DNA of 64,000 nt from Dinoroseobacter shibae DFL 12 = DSM 16493 (GTDB lineage Bacteria; Pseudomonadota; Alphaproteobacteria; Rhodobacterales; Rhodobacteraceae), in NCBI RefSeq assembly GCF_000018145.1, contig NC_009952.1, positions 1,364,001-1,428,000 of the forward strand. The letters run 5' to 3'. The notes beneath the pieces were generated by a model. It was not told the DNA's origin. It searched no databases and saw nothing but the letters and a program-made list of their open reading frames with translations. Both the position numbers and the translations under genes were made by a program. Below are positions 960-61,220 of the stretch, piece by piece. Every line of letters starts with the position of its first letter. The stretch's first letter is position 1.

Positions 960-1222
960 TGTGGATCGCGGTCGGGTTCGGGGCGGTTTTCGGTCTGTCC
1001 TTCTGGGCAAGTGCCGCGGCGGGGAAGGCATCACGTTCGTCCCTGCTGGGCATGATCGTCGGGCTGATCGCCCTTGCGGGCCTGTTGGTCGCCTATCTGG
1101 CCGGTTTGGCCATCTGGCTGCGCGCCGAGTTGCGCAGCTTTATCGAGACGTATTTACCGCAACTGGTCGAGCGGCTTCTGCTGATCCTCGAACAGGTTGC
1201 GCCACTGAGGGAAACGATCTGA
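956..1222 (+). CDS. small membrane protein with amphipathic tail
   Basis: An 88-residue protein starting at ATGATG (956, or 959 as alternative). Two hydrophobic segments (about 2-21 and 28-56) precede a C-terminal amphipathic stretch (about 57-85) rich in Leu, Glu and Arg. No family recognised. The stop shares its last base with the nuoE start (TGATG overlap), so it is co-translated with nuoE. The placement among complex I genes suggests a membrane accessory role, which is inference only. Confidence 0.65.
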
Positions 1223-2430
1223 TGCTGCGTCGTCTTCACGCCGAACAACCCGCGGATTTCGCGTTCACGCCCGAGAATGAGGCCTGGGCGCTGACGCAGA
1301 TGACCAAGTTTCCCGAGGGGCGACAGGCCAGCGCGATCATTCCGATCCTGTGGCGCGCGCAGGAACAGGAAGGCTGGCTCAGCAAACCCGCCATCGAATA
1401 CGTCGCGGACATGCTGGACATGCCCTATATCCGGGCGCTGGAAGTGGCGACATTCTACTTCATGTTCCAGCTGCAACCCGTTGGATCCGTGGCGCATATC
1501 CAGATTTGCGGCACGACCTCCTGCATGATCTGCGGGGCGGAGGACCTGGTCGCGGTCTGCAAGGAGAAGATCGCGCCGCGCGCCCATCAGCTGAGCGCCG
1601 ATGGCAAGTTCTCTTGGGAAGAGGTCGAGTGCCTCGGTTCCTGTGCCAACGCGCCCATGGCCCAGATCGGCAAGGATTATTACGAGGACCTGACGGTGGA
1701 GAGCTTCTCGGCTCTGCTGGACAGGATGGCTGCCGGCGAGGTGCCCGTGCCCGGCCCGCAAAACGGCCGCTACACCTCGGAGCCTGCGGGCGGGTTGACA
1801 AGCCTGACCGAGTACGAGGCCGGCAAGGATCCCTATAACGCCTCCGCGCGTCTGGCGGTGGACCTGGGCGATACGCTCAAGCGGATCGACGGCTCCGAAG
1901 TGCCGCTGACGGCACCCTGGCTCGGCAAGGACGCCGCGCTGCCCAAGCCCGCGAACCGCCAGGACGCCCCGGTGGCAGAAGCCAAATCCGTTGCGGCCGA
2001 GGCCGCGCCCGACCCGGCGGTCGCGCCCGCAGCGACCCCTGCCGAGGCGCCCAAGGTCACGCCGACCGCCGTTCTGCCGGGGCAGGCCGAGTTGGCCACG
2101 CGCAAGGGCAACTGGAAGTACGGGGCCGCCGCCCCGCAGCAGGGCGCCAAGCCCAAGATGCTGGAGAGTGCCCGCGCGGGCGGTGCGGACGATCTCAAGA
2201 AGATCAAGGGCGTGGGCCCCAAGCTCGAGACCTTGCTGAACAGCATGGGGATTTATCATTTCGACCAGATCGCGGCCTGGTCCGACGCTGAACTCGCCTG
2301 GGTCGACGAGAACCTCGAGGGGTTCAAGGGACGGGCGTCGCGGGACGAGTGGGTCGCACAGGCGAAAACCCTTGCGTCGGGAGGAGAGACAGAATTTTCT
2401 TCCCGCGTTACAAAGGGTGACGTTTACTGA
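1222..2430 (+). CDS. nuoE: NADH-quinone oxidoreductase subunit E with long C-terminal extension
   Basis: The 24 kDa [2Fe-2S] subunit of the NADH-oxidising module. Cluster N1a ligands are visible as C96, C101, C137 and C141. At 402 residues it is far longer than the usual 165-240. Residues 230-320 form an Ala/Pro-rich linker that carries the motif at 285-300 (L-P-G-Q-A-E-L-A, then RKGNWKY). Residues about 322-402 form a helix-hairpin-helix domain ([23 protein letters not shown]). This terminal domain is repeated almost verbatim in the next gene. The start at 1222 overlaps the previous stop. Core function is certain; the job of the extension is unknown. Confidence 0.95.
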
Positions 2431-2459: not shown

Positions 2460-3179
2460 ATGGCAACACAACGCAAAGACATGACCTGCACGATCACGTG
2501 CTGGGGGATTGGTGTCCTGTTGGGCATCATGACCACGGTTGGTTTGATGGTCGTGGGGTGGTCGTTCCTGCAAGGGGCGTTCATGGGCGTGCTCGCGTGG
2601 CTGATCGTGGGCGGCGTGCTGGCGGTTGCCGTATGTGGCGAGACCGGTCGGCCCAAAGACAACGCCGAGCAGATCCGGGCCGAGATGGCTGCGGCGCGCG
2701 AACGCGTGCGGGGCGCAACGCCCGGGATCACGCCCAAGCCCGCCCCCTCCGTGCCGGCGGATGTGCGCTCCAAGGTGCAACCGAGTGCGGCGCTGGCCGG
2801 GGAGGCCGAGTTGGCCGGTCGCAAGGGCAGCTGGAGCTATGACAGCGGGGCAGGCCATGCCAGCGGTGCCGGGCATGACGCTGGCACGGACGCGGCCAAG
2901 CCTGCGACCCTGACGGCGGCGCGCGATGGCAAGGCGGACGACCTCAAGAAGATCAAGGGCGTCGGTCCCAAGCTCGAAGAAATGCTGCACTCGATGGGGT
3001 TCTACCATTTCGACCAGGTCGCCAGCTGGTCGGAGCAGGAGTTGGCCTGGGTCGACGAGAACCTCGAAGGTTTCAAGGGCCGGGCGTCGCGCGATGAATG
3101 GGTGGCGCAAGCCAAACTGCTCGCCCAGGGCGGCGAGACCGAGTTCTCCAAGCGGGTCGATGGGGGCGATGTCTATTGA
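2460..3179 (+). CDS. membrane-anchored helix-hairpin-helix protein, paralogous to NuoE tail
   Basis: A 239-residue protein with two membrane segments at about 11-33 and 36-58, a charged and Pro/Ala-rich linker, the motif LAGEAELAGRKGSWSY at 112-127, and a C-terminal helix-hairpin-helix domain at about 158-239. That domain matches the NuoE extension with few changes ([38 protein letters not shown], ending in GGDVY). A good ribosome site (AGGGGGAGA) precedes the ATG. It is effectively the NuoE tail moved onto a membrane anchor, so tail duplication is likely. Function unknown; an accessory role for complex I is inferred from context. Confidence 0.85.
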   Translation: MATQRKDMTCTITCWGIGVLLGIMTTVGLMVVGWSFLQGAFMGVLAWLIVGGVLAVAVCGETGRPKDNAEQIRAEMAAARERVRGATPGITPKPAPSVPADVRSKVQPSAALAGEAELAGRKGSWSYDSGAGHASGAGHDAGTDAAKPATLTAARDGKADDLKKIKGVGPKLEEMLHSMGFYHFDQVASWSEQELAWVDENLEGFKGRASRDEWVAQAKLLAQGGETEFSKRVDGGDVY

Positions 3180-3181
3180 CC

Positions 3182-3412
3182 ATGCCCCAGCGCCCCGATC
3201 CCCAGGAGCAGGCCCGCGTGATGCAGGCCCGCACCGCCGCCATCGTGGTGGCGGCGACGATGGTGTTGTGGCTCGGGGCGCAATTTGCAGGGGGACAGAT
3301 GGGCCTGCCGGTCCGTTACGTCTTCCTGTTCGATTTTGCCGCACTGGCAGCGTTCTTCTGGGCGCTGGTGGTGGGGTTCAGACTCTGGCGGGCACGCCAG
3401 GCGAAGGAGTGA
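3182..3412 (+). CDS. DUF5337-like small membrane protein
   Basis: A 76-residue protein starting MPQRPDPQEQ just after the previous stop, with two hydrophobic helices (about 20-40 and 46-68) and a short basic C-terminus. Size, layout and position between nuoE and nuoF agree with the DUF5337 family found in Rhodobacterales nuo operons; that assignment is from memory of the family, not a search. Four bases separate it from nuoF, indicating one transcript. Function unknown. Confidence 0.75.
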   Translation: MPQRPDPQEQARVMQARTAAIVVAATMVLWLGAQFAGGQMGLPVRYVFLFDFAALAAFFWALVVGFRLWRARQAKE

Positions 3413-3415
3413 GAG

Positions 3416-4717
3416 ATGCTGCAAGATCAGGACCGGATCTTTACCAATATCTACGGGATGCATGACCGCACTCTGGCCGGAGCCCGCAAGCGCGGGCACT
3501 GGGACGGGACCGACAAGCTGATCCAGATGGGCCGTGACGACATCGTCAAGATCATGAAGGACAGTGGTCTGCGCGGGCGGGGCGGCGCGGGCTTCCCCAC
3601 GGGGCTCAAGTGGTCCTTCATGCCCAAGGAAAGCGACGGGCGGCCCCATTACCTGGTGGTGAATGCCGACGAATCCGAGCCGGGCACCTGCAAGGACCGG
3701 GAGATCATGCGCCATGATCCCCACACGTTGATCGAGGGCTGCCTGATCGCGTCCTTCGCCATGGGGGCCCATGCCAGCTACATCTATATCCGCGGCGAGT
3801 ATATCCGCGAGCGCGAGGCGCTGCAGGCGGCGATCGACGAGGCCTACGAGGCGGGGCTTCTGGGCAAGAACGCCGCCGGCTCCGGCTGGGATTTCGACCT
3901 CTACCTGACCCACGGGGCGGGCGCCTATATCTGCGGCGAGGAAACCGCTCTGATCGAGAGCCTGGAGGGCAAGAAGGGCATGCCGCGCATGAAGCCGCCC
4001 TTCCCGGCGGGCGCGGGGCTCTATGGTTGCCCGACCACGGTCAACAACGTGGAATCCATCGCCGTGGTGCCGACGATCCTGCGGCGCGGGGCCGACTGGT
4101 TCGCGCAGTTCGGGCGCCCCAACAACGCGGGCACCAAGCTCTTCGCGATCTCGGGCCATGTGAACCAGCCCTGCGTGGTCGAGGAGGCCATGAGCATCTC
4201 CTTCGAGGAGTTGATCGACAAGCATTGCGGCGGCATTCGCGGCGGGTGGGACAACCTCAAGGCGGTGATCCCCGGCGGGTCGTCCGTGCCGTGTGTGCGC
4301 GGCGAGAACATGCGCGACGCGATCATGGATTTCGACTACCTGCGGGGCGAGCTGGGCTCCGGCCTCGGCACGGCGGCGGTGATCGTGATGGATCAGTCCA
4401 CCGACATCATCAAGGCGATCTGGCGGCTCTCGGCCTTCTACAAGCACGAAAGCTGCGGCCAGTGCACGCCCTGCCGCGAAGGCACCGGCTGGATGATGCG
4501 GGTGATGGACCGGCTGGTGCGCGGCGAGGCGGAGGTCGAAGAGATCGACATGCTGTTTGACGTCACCAAGCAGGTCGAGGGCCACACGATCTGCGCGCTC
4601 GGCGACGCGGCGGCCTGGCCGATCCAGGGCCTGATCCGCAACTTCCGCGACGAGATCGAGGACCGGATCAAGGCGCAGAAGACCGGGCGCGTCACGGCGG
4701 CCCTGGCAGCCGAGTGA
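3416..4717 (+). CDS. nuoF: NADH-quinone oxidoreductase subunit F
   Basis: The 51 kDa subunit that binds NADH and FMN and carries cluster N3. The FMN loop [10 protein letters not shown] is at 54-63, the second glycine-rich segment [10 protein letters not shown] at 167-176, and the [4Fe-4S] ligands are C347, C350, C353 and C393. Length of 433 residues is standard. It accepts hydride from NADH at the tip of the peripheral arm and passes electrons toward NuoG. The stop overlaps the GTG start of the next gene by 4 bases. Confidence 0.98.
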
Positions 4718-58757: not shown

Positions 58758-60209
58758 ATGTCGACAGTCATCAAGAACGGAACCGTGGTCACCGCCGACC
58801 TGACCTACGAAGCGGAAGTGCGCGTCGAGGGGGGCAAGATCACCGAGATCGGGCAGGGCCTGTCCGGGGACACGGTGCTGGACGCGACGGGCTGCTACGT
58901 GATGCCCGGCGGGATCGACCCGCACACCCATCTGGAGATGCCCTTCATGGGCACGTACTCGTCGGACGATTTCGAGAGTGGCACGCGCGCGGCGCTCTCG
59001 GGGGGTACCACGATGGTCGTGGATTTCGCCCTGCCGAGCCCGGGGCAGGGGCTGCTCGATGCGATCCAGATGTGGGACAACAAGTCGACCCGGGCCAATT
59101 GCGACTACTCGTTCCACATGGCGATCACCTGGTGGGGGGAACAGGTCTTCAACGAGATGGAGGCGGTCACGAAGCGCGGCATCAACACGTTCAAGCATTT
59201 CATGGCCTACAAGGGCGCCCTGATGGTTAACGATGACGAGATGTTCGCCTCGTTCCGGCGCTGCGCCGAGTTGGGGGCGCTGCCGCTGGTGCATGCGGAG
59301 AACGGCGATGTGGTCGCGGATCTGCAGCAGAAATTTTTGGCCGAGGGCAATACCGGGCCCGAAGCGCACGCCTATTCCCGCCCCCCGGCGGTGGAGGGCG
59401 AGGCGACCAACCGGGCCATCATGATCGCCGACATGGCAGGCGTGCCGGTCTATATCGTGCACACCTCCTGCGAAGAGGCGCACGAGGCGATCCGGCGGGC
59501 GCGGATGCAGGGCAAGCGGGTCTATGGCGAGCCGCTGATCCAGCACCTGACCCTGGACGAGAGCGAATATGCCCATCCCGACTGGGACCATGCGGCCCGC
59601 CGGGTGATGTCGCCCCCCTTCCGCAACAAGCAGCACCAGGACTCCTTATGGAACGGTCTGGCCTCCGGCTCGCTGTCGGTGGTGGCGACGGATCACTGCG
59701 CCTTCACCACCGCGCAGAAACGCACGGGCGTTGGCGATTTCACCCAGATCCCCAATGGCACCGGCGGGCTTGAGGATCGGATGCCGATGCTCTGGACCCA
59801 CGGGGTGAATACCGGGCGGCTGACCCCGAACGAGTTCGTGGCCGTCACCTCGACCAACATCGCCAAGATCCTCAACTGCTATCCGACCAAGGGGGCGATC
59901 CTTGTCGGCGCGGATGCCGATATCGTGGTCTGGGATCCGGAGAAGGAGAAGACCATCTCTGCAGACAGCCAGCAATCCGCCATTGATTACAACGTCTTCG
60001 AGGGCAAGCATGTGAAGGGCCTGCCGCGCTACACGCTGACCCGGGGCCATGTGGCGGTGATGGATGGCGAGATTCGGACCCAGGAGGGCCACGGCAAGTT
60101 CGTCGAACGCCCGCCGGTCACCCCGGTGTCCAAGGCGCTCAGCACCTGGAAGGAGCTGACCGCCCCGCGCAAGGTGGAGCGGACCGGCATCCCCGCGAGC
60201 GGAGTGTAA
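58758..60209 (+). CDS. hydA: dihydropyrimidinase
   Basis: 483 residues, amidohydrolase superfamily. Metal ligands H56 and H58 (in PHTHLEM) and the bridging carbamylated lysine K152 (in FMAYKG). Opens 5,6-dihydrouracil/dihydrothymine to the N-carbamoyl-beta-amino acid; D-hydantoins are alternative substrates. Preceded by a GGGGAGACC ribosome site. Ends 9 bases before the ABC ATPase. Confidence 0.95.
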   Translation: MSTVIKNGTVVTADLTYEAEVRVEGGKITEIGQGLSGDTVLDATGCYVMPGGIDPHTHLEMPFMGTYSSDDFESGTRAALSGGTTMVVDFALPSPGQGLLDAIQMWDNKSTRANCDYSFHMAITWWGEQVFNEMEAVTKRGINTFKHFMAYKGALMVNDDEMFASFRRCAELGALPLVHAENGDVVADLQQKFLAEGNTGPEAHAYSRPPAVEGEATNRAIMIADMAGVPVYIVHTSCEEAHEAIRRARMQGKRVYGEPLIQHLTLDESEYAHPDWDHAARRVMSPPFRNKQHQDSLWNGLASGSLSVVATDHCAFTTAQKRTGVGDFTQIPNGTGGLEDRMPMLWTHGVNTGRLTPNEFVAVTSTNIAKILNCYPTKGAILVGADADIVVWDPEKEKTISADSQQSAIDYNVFEGKHVKGLPRYTLTRGHVAVMDGEIRTQEGHGKFVERPPVTPVSKALSTWKELTAPRKVERTGIPASGV

Positions 60210-60218
60210 TCGGCGCCG

Positions 60219-61220
60219 ATGCTCAGTCGCGAAGAAATCGACGGGTTCGACCACAGCCCAGAGCCACCGAAACCCGCGCCCGCACGCGCGCCGAAGGTCA
60301 CCCCGTCGCAGCCCCTTGCGGGGGAGGCGGACCTGGCCAGCCGCAAGGGCAATTGGCGCTACCTCGCGCCGGAGGCCGCGGCGCCCCAGGCCGACGCCGA
60401 GGCACCGGCCGCGGCGCCCGAGCCGACGCGCGCGACGGATGCGCCTGCGACCGTGATCTCGGCGCGGGATCTGGACCTGGTGTTCCAGACCAACGATGGT
60501 CCGGTTCATGCGCTGTCGGGCGTCAATCTTGAGATCGGCAAGGGCGAGTTCGTCAGCTTTATCGGCCCCTCGGGCTGCGGCAAGACCACCTTCCTGCGCG
60601 CGGTCGCAGGGCTGGAGCATCCCACGGGCGGCTCGCTCACGGTCAATGGCATGACCCCGGACGAGGCCCGGCAGGCCCGCGCCTATGGCTACGTCTTCCA
60701 GGCGGCGGGGCTTTATCCGTGGCGCACCATCGCCAAGAATATCTCCCTGCCGCTTCAGATCATGGGCTATTCCAAGGCCGATCAGGAGGCGCGCGTTGCC
60801 CGCGTGCTGGAGTTGGTGGAGTTGTCGGGCTTTGCCAAGAAATACCCCTGGCAGCTGTCGGGGGGCATGCAGCAACGCGCGTCCATCGCGCGGGCGCTGT
60901 CCTTCGATGCCGATATCCTGCTGATGGACGAACCCTTCGGAGCGTTGGACGAGATCGTGCGCGACCACCTCAACGAGCAGTTGCTCGCCCTGTGGAAGCG
61001 CACCGAGAAGACCATCGGCTTCGTCACCCATTCGATCCCCGAGGCGGTCTATCTCAGCACCAAGATCGTGGTGATGTCCCCGCGCCCGGGCCGGATCACG
61101 GATGTGATCGACAGCCCGCTCCCCCTCGACCGCCCGCTCGACATCCGCGACACGCCGGAATTCATCGAGATTGCCCACCGCGTCCGCGAGGGCCTTCGGG
61201 CGGGGCATCTGGATGAGTAG
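60219..61220 (+). CDS. ABC transporter ATPase, TauB/SsuB type, with unusual N-terminal extension
   Basis: 333 residues. The ABC domain starts near 79: Walker A GPSGCGKTT at 116-124, signature LSGGMQQR at 213-220, Walker B DILLMDEPFG, H loop VTHSIPEAV. The first 78 residues are an extension with a Pro/Ala-rich linker and the motif LAGEADLASRKGNWRY at 33-48. That motif matches two proteins of the nuo operon. Powers the two permeases downstream; substrate probably a pyrimidine or its degradation intermediate. Confidence 0.92.
   Translation: MLSREEIDGFDHSPEPPKPAPARAPKVTPSQPLAGEADLASRKGNWRYLAPEAAAPQADAEAPAAAPEPTRATDAPATVISARDLDLVFQTNDGPVHALSGVNLEIGKGEFVSFIGPSGCGKTTFLRAVAGLEHPTGGSLTVNGMTPDEARQARAYGYVFQAAGLYPWRTIAKNISLPLQIMGYSKADQEARVARVLELVELSGFAKKYPWQLSGGMQQRASIARALSFDADILLMDEPFGALDEIVRDHLNEQLLALWKRTEKTIGFVTHSIPEAVYLSTKIVVMSPRPGRITDVIDSPLPLDRPLDIRDTPEFIEIAHRVREGLRAGHLDE

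Follow-up and report, generated by a model that had tools for sequence, protein, structure and literature searches.

Recent work by LC-MS/MS and cryo-EM identified a new subunit, protein-O, in the RC-LH1 complex of Dinoroseobacter shibae DFL 12 (PDB 8yy9, 8yz2, 9jpb and 9km0; ABV93056.1; PMC12079452). According to the main text of that paper, residues 8–59 of protein-O were traced between the reaction centre and the LH1 ring, a long flexible loop joins this hairpin to a C-terminal domain, the latter (residues 159–239 compared) resembles the C-terminus of NuoE, and the protein-O gene sits between the genes for NuoE and NuoF, while the function of protein-O is stated by its authors to be unknown. 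The sequence module described below falls in the stretch of the flexible loop, and neither 'RKG' nor 'linker' occurs in the main text of PMC12079452.

The same protein is encoded in the window analysed here, by which we mean the whole stretch of 64,000 nucleotides of the D. shibae DFL 12 = DSM 16493 genome (NC_009952.1, positions 1,364,001 to 1,428,000). ORF 2460 (2460–3179, plus strand, 239 aa), which a first-pass annotation of this DNA had described as a membrane protein of the nuo operon, is identical to chain O of PDB 8yy9 (239/239 residues, E 3.3e-159) and has thus already been published as the RC-LH1 subunit protein-O; the M chain of the same entry matches all 330 residues of the genome's own reaction-centre M chain (E 3.7e-230). 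Two further PDB entries, 9lts and 9ltv, hold a 'Protein LRC' (76 residues) that matches protein-O residues 7–87 with a five-residue gap and may represent a second structure tracing more of this protein; no paper on these entries was found in the open PubMed Central set.

A gene for a reaction-centre subunit hence lies inside the complex I operon. Upstream of it, nuoE (1222–2430, plus strand, ATG at 1222) encodes a 402-residue protein matching NF009040 over its full length (residues 1–400) with 639.9 bits, above the curated cut-off of 514, and is composed of a [2Fe-2S] thioredoxin-like domain, a Pro/Ala linker with the module and a C-terminal HHH-like domain (2173–2382, about residues 318–387, borders approximate). 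Protein-O has a two-TM hairpin (2481–2636, residues 8–59, supported by hydropathy and by the tracing in the RC-LH1 map of PMC12079452), a linker with the module and likewise a C-terminal HHH-like (helix-hairpin-helix) domain (2922–3131, about residues 155–224, borders approximate). Because the C-terminal domain is common to both, NuoE and ORF 2460 do not count as independent carriers of the module. HHH_5 (PF14520) matched with 17.4 and 20.3 bits, under its gathering cut-off of 27, so that the domain is not assigned to this family, and it is related to the tails of the NCBIfam L21, S2 and PhaH models, with scores below their whole-protein cut-offs; the same tail is seen on models of the ribosomal proteins L21 and S2 and of the phasin PhaH. 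The interval is bounded downstream by nuoF (3416–4717, plus strand). Just before nuoF, a small two-TM protein is encoded at 3098–3412, with relatives in most of the nuoE–nuoF intervals listed, irrespective of whether these contain X, as we call any small membrane protein of the protein-O family encoded between nuoE and nuoF.

A 22-residue module in three proteins of D. shibae

The first-pass annotation had reported the motif LxGxAxLAxRKGxWxY in NuoE, in ORF 2460 and in a distant ABC ATPase. Translation and a DNA pattern confirmed all three copies where it had placed them, and the core had been recognised correctly, but the motif as given is too short: the module comprises 22 residues starting at [VI]KPS, with the consensus [VI]KPSxxLxGxx[DE]LAx[RK]KGxWxY. 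By DNA pattern and profile searches there are exactly three copies in the 4.42 Mb genome, all on the plus strand of the window, located in NuoE (2047–2127, residues 276–302; core RKGNWKY at 2101–2121, R294 to Y300), in protein-O (2766–2846, residues 103–129; core RKGSWSY at 2820–2840, R121 to Y127) and at the N-terminus of the ABC ATPase (60288–60368, residues 24–50; core RKGNWRY at 60342–60362, R42 to Y48). The KVTP said to precede the motif in both NuoE and the ATPase is indeed shared by them, as part of APKVTP, and is replaced by KVQP in ORF 2460.

The pattern occurs far above the random frequency that the first-pass annotation had named as a refutation. A DNA pattern for RKGxWxY matched the 4,417,868-base genome (6 contigs) three times, each time at one of the three copies, and its reversed version, used as a control on the same genome, gave 0 matches. 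A held-out profile made of 12 copies from other genomes, from which the window's three were excluded, was searched against the six-frame translation of the window (E-values scaled to the genome), and recovered ORF 2460 (E 5.3e-12), the ATPase (1.5e-11) and NuoE (3.5e-10), the next match reaching only E 39. We regard this as the fair test, given that the profile used on the whole genome (E 1.3e-15 to 7.0e-15 for the three copies, 0.24 for the next match) itself contained the three copies. Chance resemblance is ruled out by the held-out profile in the window together with the genome-wide DNA pattern.

The module has sharp edges. In the 85 distinct instances that a genome-wide DNA scan yielded once six chance loci had been removed, several positions that the search pattern had left free are nearly fixed (G in 85/85, L in 84/85, an initial V or I in 76/85 and S in 65/85), and both flanks of the 22 residues are varied and Ala-rich. 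It is also all-or-none in the 112 nuo loci scored, where NuoE tails and X proteins gave at most 3.6 bits in motif-negative loci and at least 24.0 bits in motif-positive ones; degenerate copies exist as well (L101, L104 and L107). An AlphaFold2 model of protein-O contains a short helix at residues 115–121 in a block of mean pLDDT 71, preceded by linker blocks of 60–62 and followed by 55 for the block holding the RKGSWSY half, while the NuoE model, built from 10 sequences with a mean pLDDT of 52.7, was too poor for use.

Pfam and NCBIfam scans of the carriers showed no family confined to the module, and a profile search of the PDB with the module returned protein-O alone below E 0.3. Fragments of the MLK3 SH3 domain, aligned over 11 residues in that search at E 0.30–0.88, are not significant, and we rejected this resemblance. 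No description of the module was found among the open PubMed Central papers listed. We propose that the RKGxWxY module serves as a short linear docking motif, displayed mainly on complex I and bound by one soluble partner in trans, a reading that on the sequence data has about an even chance of being correct.

Distribution on NuoE and X

A profile search (E 0.01 or better) of 394 genomes of Rhodobacteraceae, a set with roughly one genome for each genus and with no more than 21 candidates scored in each, yielded a module match in 81 genomes; given that only 81/394 genomes of the family match, its function would be an optional one. From 78 of the 81 we fetched 80 loci, the other three genomes being the window's own, G078, in which the match adjoins nuoF by coordinates, and G266, in which a weak match (14 residues, 19.5 bits) lies on a contig other than that of nuoF. 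NuoE or X is the carrier in 77 of the 80 fetched loci. The first-pass annotation had ascribed the three D. shibae carriers to different systems, which holds for the ATPase, but NuoE and ORF 2460 are encoded in one and the same operon, to which the module is for the most part linked.

Counting every ORF with a score over 20 bits as a carrier, the 80 loci contain 90: 60 X proteins with the HHH-like domain, 14 X proteins without it, 13 NuoE proteins (one without it), one ABC ATPase and two further non-nuo proteins. By locus, the module is found in X only in 66 cases (including two non-nuo proteins), in NuoE and X in 10, in NuoE only in three and in the ATPase in one. These counts follow the ORF classification because the architecture script, from whose table 9 of 121 loci were dropped as incomplete (three of them non-nuo), missed X in four positive loci and mislabelled L163. 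Forty nuo intervals from genomes without a match served for comparison; 37 were scorable, 20 of which have an X with the HHH-like domain but without the module and 17 no X (16 by script, plus L163, where another small protein had been taken for X).

Since either NuoE or X can carry the module, complex I would be its main site of display. In L032, L070 and L096 only NuoE carries it and the nuoE–nuoF gap of about 250–290 bases is too short for X, which links the module to complex I itself. In a DNA scan of one genome per species (84,980 species), the 80 loci listed of 117 stretches hold 91 instances, comprising 84 that are nuo-linked, 6 chance matches in unrelated bacteria and 1 hairpin protein, with some records named only as Alphaproteobacteria and their family unchecked.

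This concentration could also mean that the module acts as an internal clamp, binding the surface of complex I (NuoF, NuoG or another core subunit) and tying down the NuoE tail and X, with the ATPase copy being incidental. Both the nuo-linked share of 92% in the species scan and the three loci with the module in NuoE and no room for X would fit. On the other side, no NuoE-core residue tracks the module, the best of 258 such coevolution tests failing Bonferroni correction; tandem copies (two in 5 X proteins, three in 1) and the presence of the module on both NuoE and X in 10/80 loci would lead to competition for a single site; and it is also present on a membrane protein of a photosynthesis cluster and on two ABC ATPases. 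We therefore consider a clamp unlikely.

The position of the module is relevant to a second alternative, a turnover or assembly handle, by which an adaptor, protease or chaperone would recognise the module, be it within a linker or at a C-terminus, and set the amount or the assembly of its carrier. Degrons often sit at C-termini, and 13 of the 14 HHH-less X proteins end 0–5 residues past the module, the 14th being cut by the contig end; tandem copies would, moreover, raise the affinity of such a handle. In most carriers, however, the module is internal and followed by the HHH-like domain (in 60 X and 12 NuoE proteins among the 90 ORFs), and we know of no degron resembling it, so that this explanation appears improbable. 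Packing of the module onto the HHH domain is unlikely as a general role, because the HHH-less X proteins keep the module, as do two nuo loci, L045 and L049, in which BLAST detects no such domain in 8 kb.

The occurrence of the module was compared with that of the photosynthetic reaction centre. PufL/M are present in 37 of the 81 motif-positive versus 129 of the 313 motif-negative genomes (Fisher p = 0.53), and a genome-level link of the module to photosynthesis was rejected on these grounds. Put the other way round, 37 of 166 genomes with PufL/M and 44 of 228 without have the module, and as it is about equally common in both, its main role is probably not photosynthesis, which also suggests a wider role of protein-O with complex I. 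X is found in genomes without detected PufL/M and should therefore have a non-photosynthetic role.

The first-pass annotation had made its case dependent on presence of the motif in orthologues. For NuoE and its operon neighbour this is borne out in many genera, but not for the ATPase, of whose 332 orthologue-bearing genomes two were seen to have the module, nor evenly within the genus: an exact DNA pattern run on five same-genus genomes, two of them 81–83% complete, found the module in the nuo genes of G002 only. In a class-wide sample of 210 genomes there were three matches, two of them within the family (the window's own and G238) and a third, in G495, that is partial (model positions 3–17, E 0.009), and no convincing match outside Rhodobacteraceae; among 140 genomes sampled from the order, the 32 with a match all (32/32) belong to this family. 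On a tree of 111 NuoE cores the module label requires 29 changes versus a shuffled mean of 31.7, i.e. its distribution is patchy, and gains are indistinguishable from losses on this tree because it is poorly resolved (5/108 branches starred), over-samples motif-positive genomes and carries two wrongly labelled positive loci.

Carriers outside the operon and origin of the copies

The third D. shibae copy belongs to a 333-residue ABC ATPase of a NitT/TauT-like transporter (60219–61220, plus strand; Pfam and NCBIfam scans), whose gene adjoins that of a dihydropyrimidinase (58758–60209, plus strand; TIGR02033, 594.8 bits, cut-off 393.25). The module lies in an N-terminal extension (60219–60446, plus strand). 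An orthologue is present in 332/394 genomes (E 1e-90), and most of these, among the matches listed, align only from about residue 50–79 on, past the module; of 31 N-termini compared, the module is absent from 29 and present in that of the window and in that of G404 (L102), a second pyrimidine-cluster ATPase from another genus that has different flanks. Among the carriers classified from a motif search of the 394 genomes, there was no third ATPase. Because the orthologues almost all lack the module, the ATPase copy is, judging from these alignments, a graft that is either recent or rare, two cases having been seen in the 332 orthologue-bearing genomes.

The ATPase (60219–60248) and the same-genus proteins of L196 and L117 begin with MLS[QR][DE]EIDGF, a start that resembles, as we take it, the EIDAL-type start of FliM that binds CheY. 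Within the genus, the ATPases of G001 and G003 start with MLSQDEIDGF and lack the module, both features are missing from G002 and G004, and no match was obtained in G005; since its start is shared with relatives, the N-terminus of the window's ATPase would be translated. A plasmid search with a 27-residue ATPase peptide, a short and hence weak query, gave no match, and a contig search with a 49-residue peptide returned 593 stretches, none of which was confirmed.

Small membrane proteins form the other group of non-nuo carriers. In G358, which also has two copies in the X protein of its nuo locus (L047), a 134-residue membrane protein in the photosynthesis cluster (L141, 6959–7360, minus strand) ends just past the module. 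Its gene lies beside bchP (TIGR02023, 538.6 bits, cut-off 343.3), on a contig that also holds a reaction-centre gene about 25 kb away; the protein has no Pfam or NCBIfam family match and looks hairpin-like by eye, with one segment only passing the hydropathy cut-off, and it could be an RC-LH1 subunit. The 148-residue protein of L142 (G204) has a TM segment at its C-terminus and carries a degenerate copy, LANRTLDWKY, and in L224 the module sits on a hairpin protein elsewhere in a Rhodobacteraceae genome. Four genomes of the 394-genome set have non-nuo carriers, and G000, G358 and G404, but not G204, also have a nuo copy; leaving out G000, which was chosen for its module, this co-occurrence amounts to 2/3, which at a background of 81/394 has a probability of about 0.11 and is not significant, the weak G266 match being uncounted.

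The module copies of NuoE and the ATPase are identical in 18 of 27 residues. Taking the codon usage of eight window genes as a basis for the expectation, identical residues use identical codons in 11/18 cases for NuoE and the ATPase (9.5 expected), in 9/16 for protein-O and the ATPase (8.4) and in 12/15 for NuoE and protein-O (8.1). The agreement between NuoE and the ATPase is little above expectation, which speaks for selection on the peptide rather than for a recent copying of DNA, while the excess between NuoE and protein-O might be what is expected of neighbours with a common tail. NuoE and the ATPase also share an N before the W that is not among the six commonest residues at this position in the fetched loci, a hint, from the sequences, that these two copies may share an origin or a local partner.

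Could the copies simply reflect duplication, whereby the C-terminal part of NuoE (linker, module and HHH domain) was copied onto a TM hairpin to give rise to X, which would make two of the three copies paralogous, and the ATPase copy is a functionless fusion? The HHH-like domain common to NuoE and protein-O, the agreement of their module codons above the codon-usage prediction and the near-constant lack of the extension in ATPase orthologues would all be accounted for. Yet module and HHH domain assort independently, and a near-fixed module between varied flanks, together with a second ATPase from another genus with different flanks (L102), is hard to square with an absence of function, leaving this scenario very doubtful. 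Rickettsia palindromic elements are mobile in-frame DNA elements that insert peptides into genes, and a similar element, suggested here by a short in-frame unit that occurs in unrelated proteins and is wholly present or absent in the scored loci, is mostly refuted and highly improbable, as the six frames of the genome hold no further convincing copy, repeated DNA copies were thus not found and codon identity is little above the codon-usage expectation save for the neighbours NuoE and protein-O.

Proposed docking-motif reading and comparison with known systems

We return to our preferred reading of the module as a docking motif. The module as such, its carriers, its all-or-none behaviour in the scored loci and its independence from the HHH domain are established here. 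A docking motif fits because a near-fixed peptide is found between varied flanks, is repeated in tandem, is independent of the neighbouring domain and occasionally appears elsewhere. A conserved short core in an unconserved linker was found, and, as far as occurrence is concerned, so were unrelated carriers and independence from the domain next to it. NuoE, X, the ABC ATPases (window and L102) and the proteins of L141, L142 and L224 are otherwise unlike one another; since most copies lie in one operon, the statement that there are many unrelated carriers draws on the two ATPases and three small membrane proteins. The docking peptide suggested in the first-pass annotation is thus supported in its anatomy (a short, sharp-edged module in linkers, with tandem copies, HHH independence and other membrane-linked carriers), whereas its partner is putative.

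In this docking model, the module of about 22 residues would lie in Pro/Ala linkers that we infer to be disordered in the cell and exposed on the cytoplasmic side, and would putatively bind one soluble partner in trans. It would mainly serve as a docking site for respiratory complex I, provided either by the NuoE tail or by X, the latter presumably being part of the complex. In phototrophs, X could in addition enter RC-LH1 as protein-O and thereby place the same docking site on a photosynthetic complex, and occasional grafting would have brought it onto other membrane-associated proteins, including the pyrimidine-cluster ABC ATPase of D. shibae. The strongest form, in which one and the same partner recognises the cytoplasmic peptide on complex I (NuoE or X) and on RC-LH1 (protein-O) and the ATPase is recruited to the same place, seems to us rather unlikely; if true, the partner would physically couple or co-localise two quinone-linked electron-transfer complexes in aerobic anoxygenic phototrophs. 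Should a common partner exist, bacteria would have a novel means of linking membrane energy complexes to one another or to a scaffold, and if the module instead controlled turnover, this type of handle would likewise be new. In either case, the 22 residues offer a concrete handle, in the form of a bait peptide, on the recently solved protein-O.

How does the module relate to described systems? PDB 9wqv contains, alongside a reaction-centre M chain, a relative of protein-O, its chain a (229 aa, named 'NADH:ubiquinone oxidoreductase 41 kd complex i subunit'). Unlike protein-O, this relative has no RKGxWxY at the aligned place, so a protein of this kind can occur in a reaction-centre entry without the module. 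Protein-O also matches, below the cut-off, positions 242–396 of NCBIfam NF009040, the model of NuoE with a C-terminal extension, which consequently spans the module region; NF009040 is a model of the whole NuoE protein, however, and the module is absent from most of the family genomes searched. As a class, short linear motifs are short, reside in linkers, occur in tandem and are portable between proteins, and the RKGxWxY module is likewise short, located in linkers, repeated in tandem and carried by several proteins.
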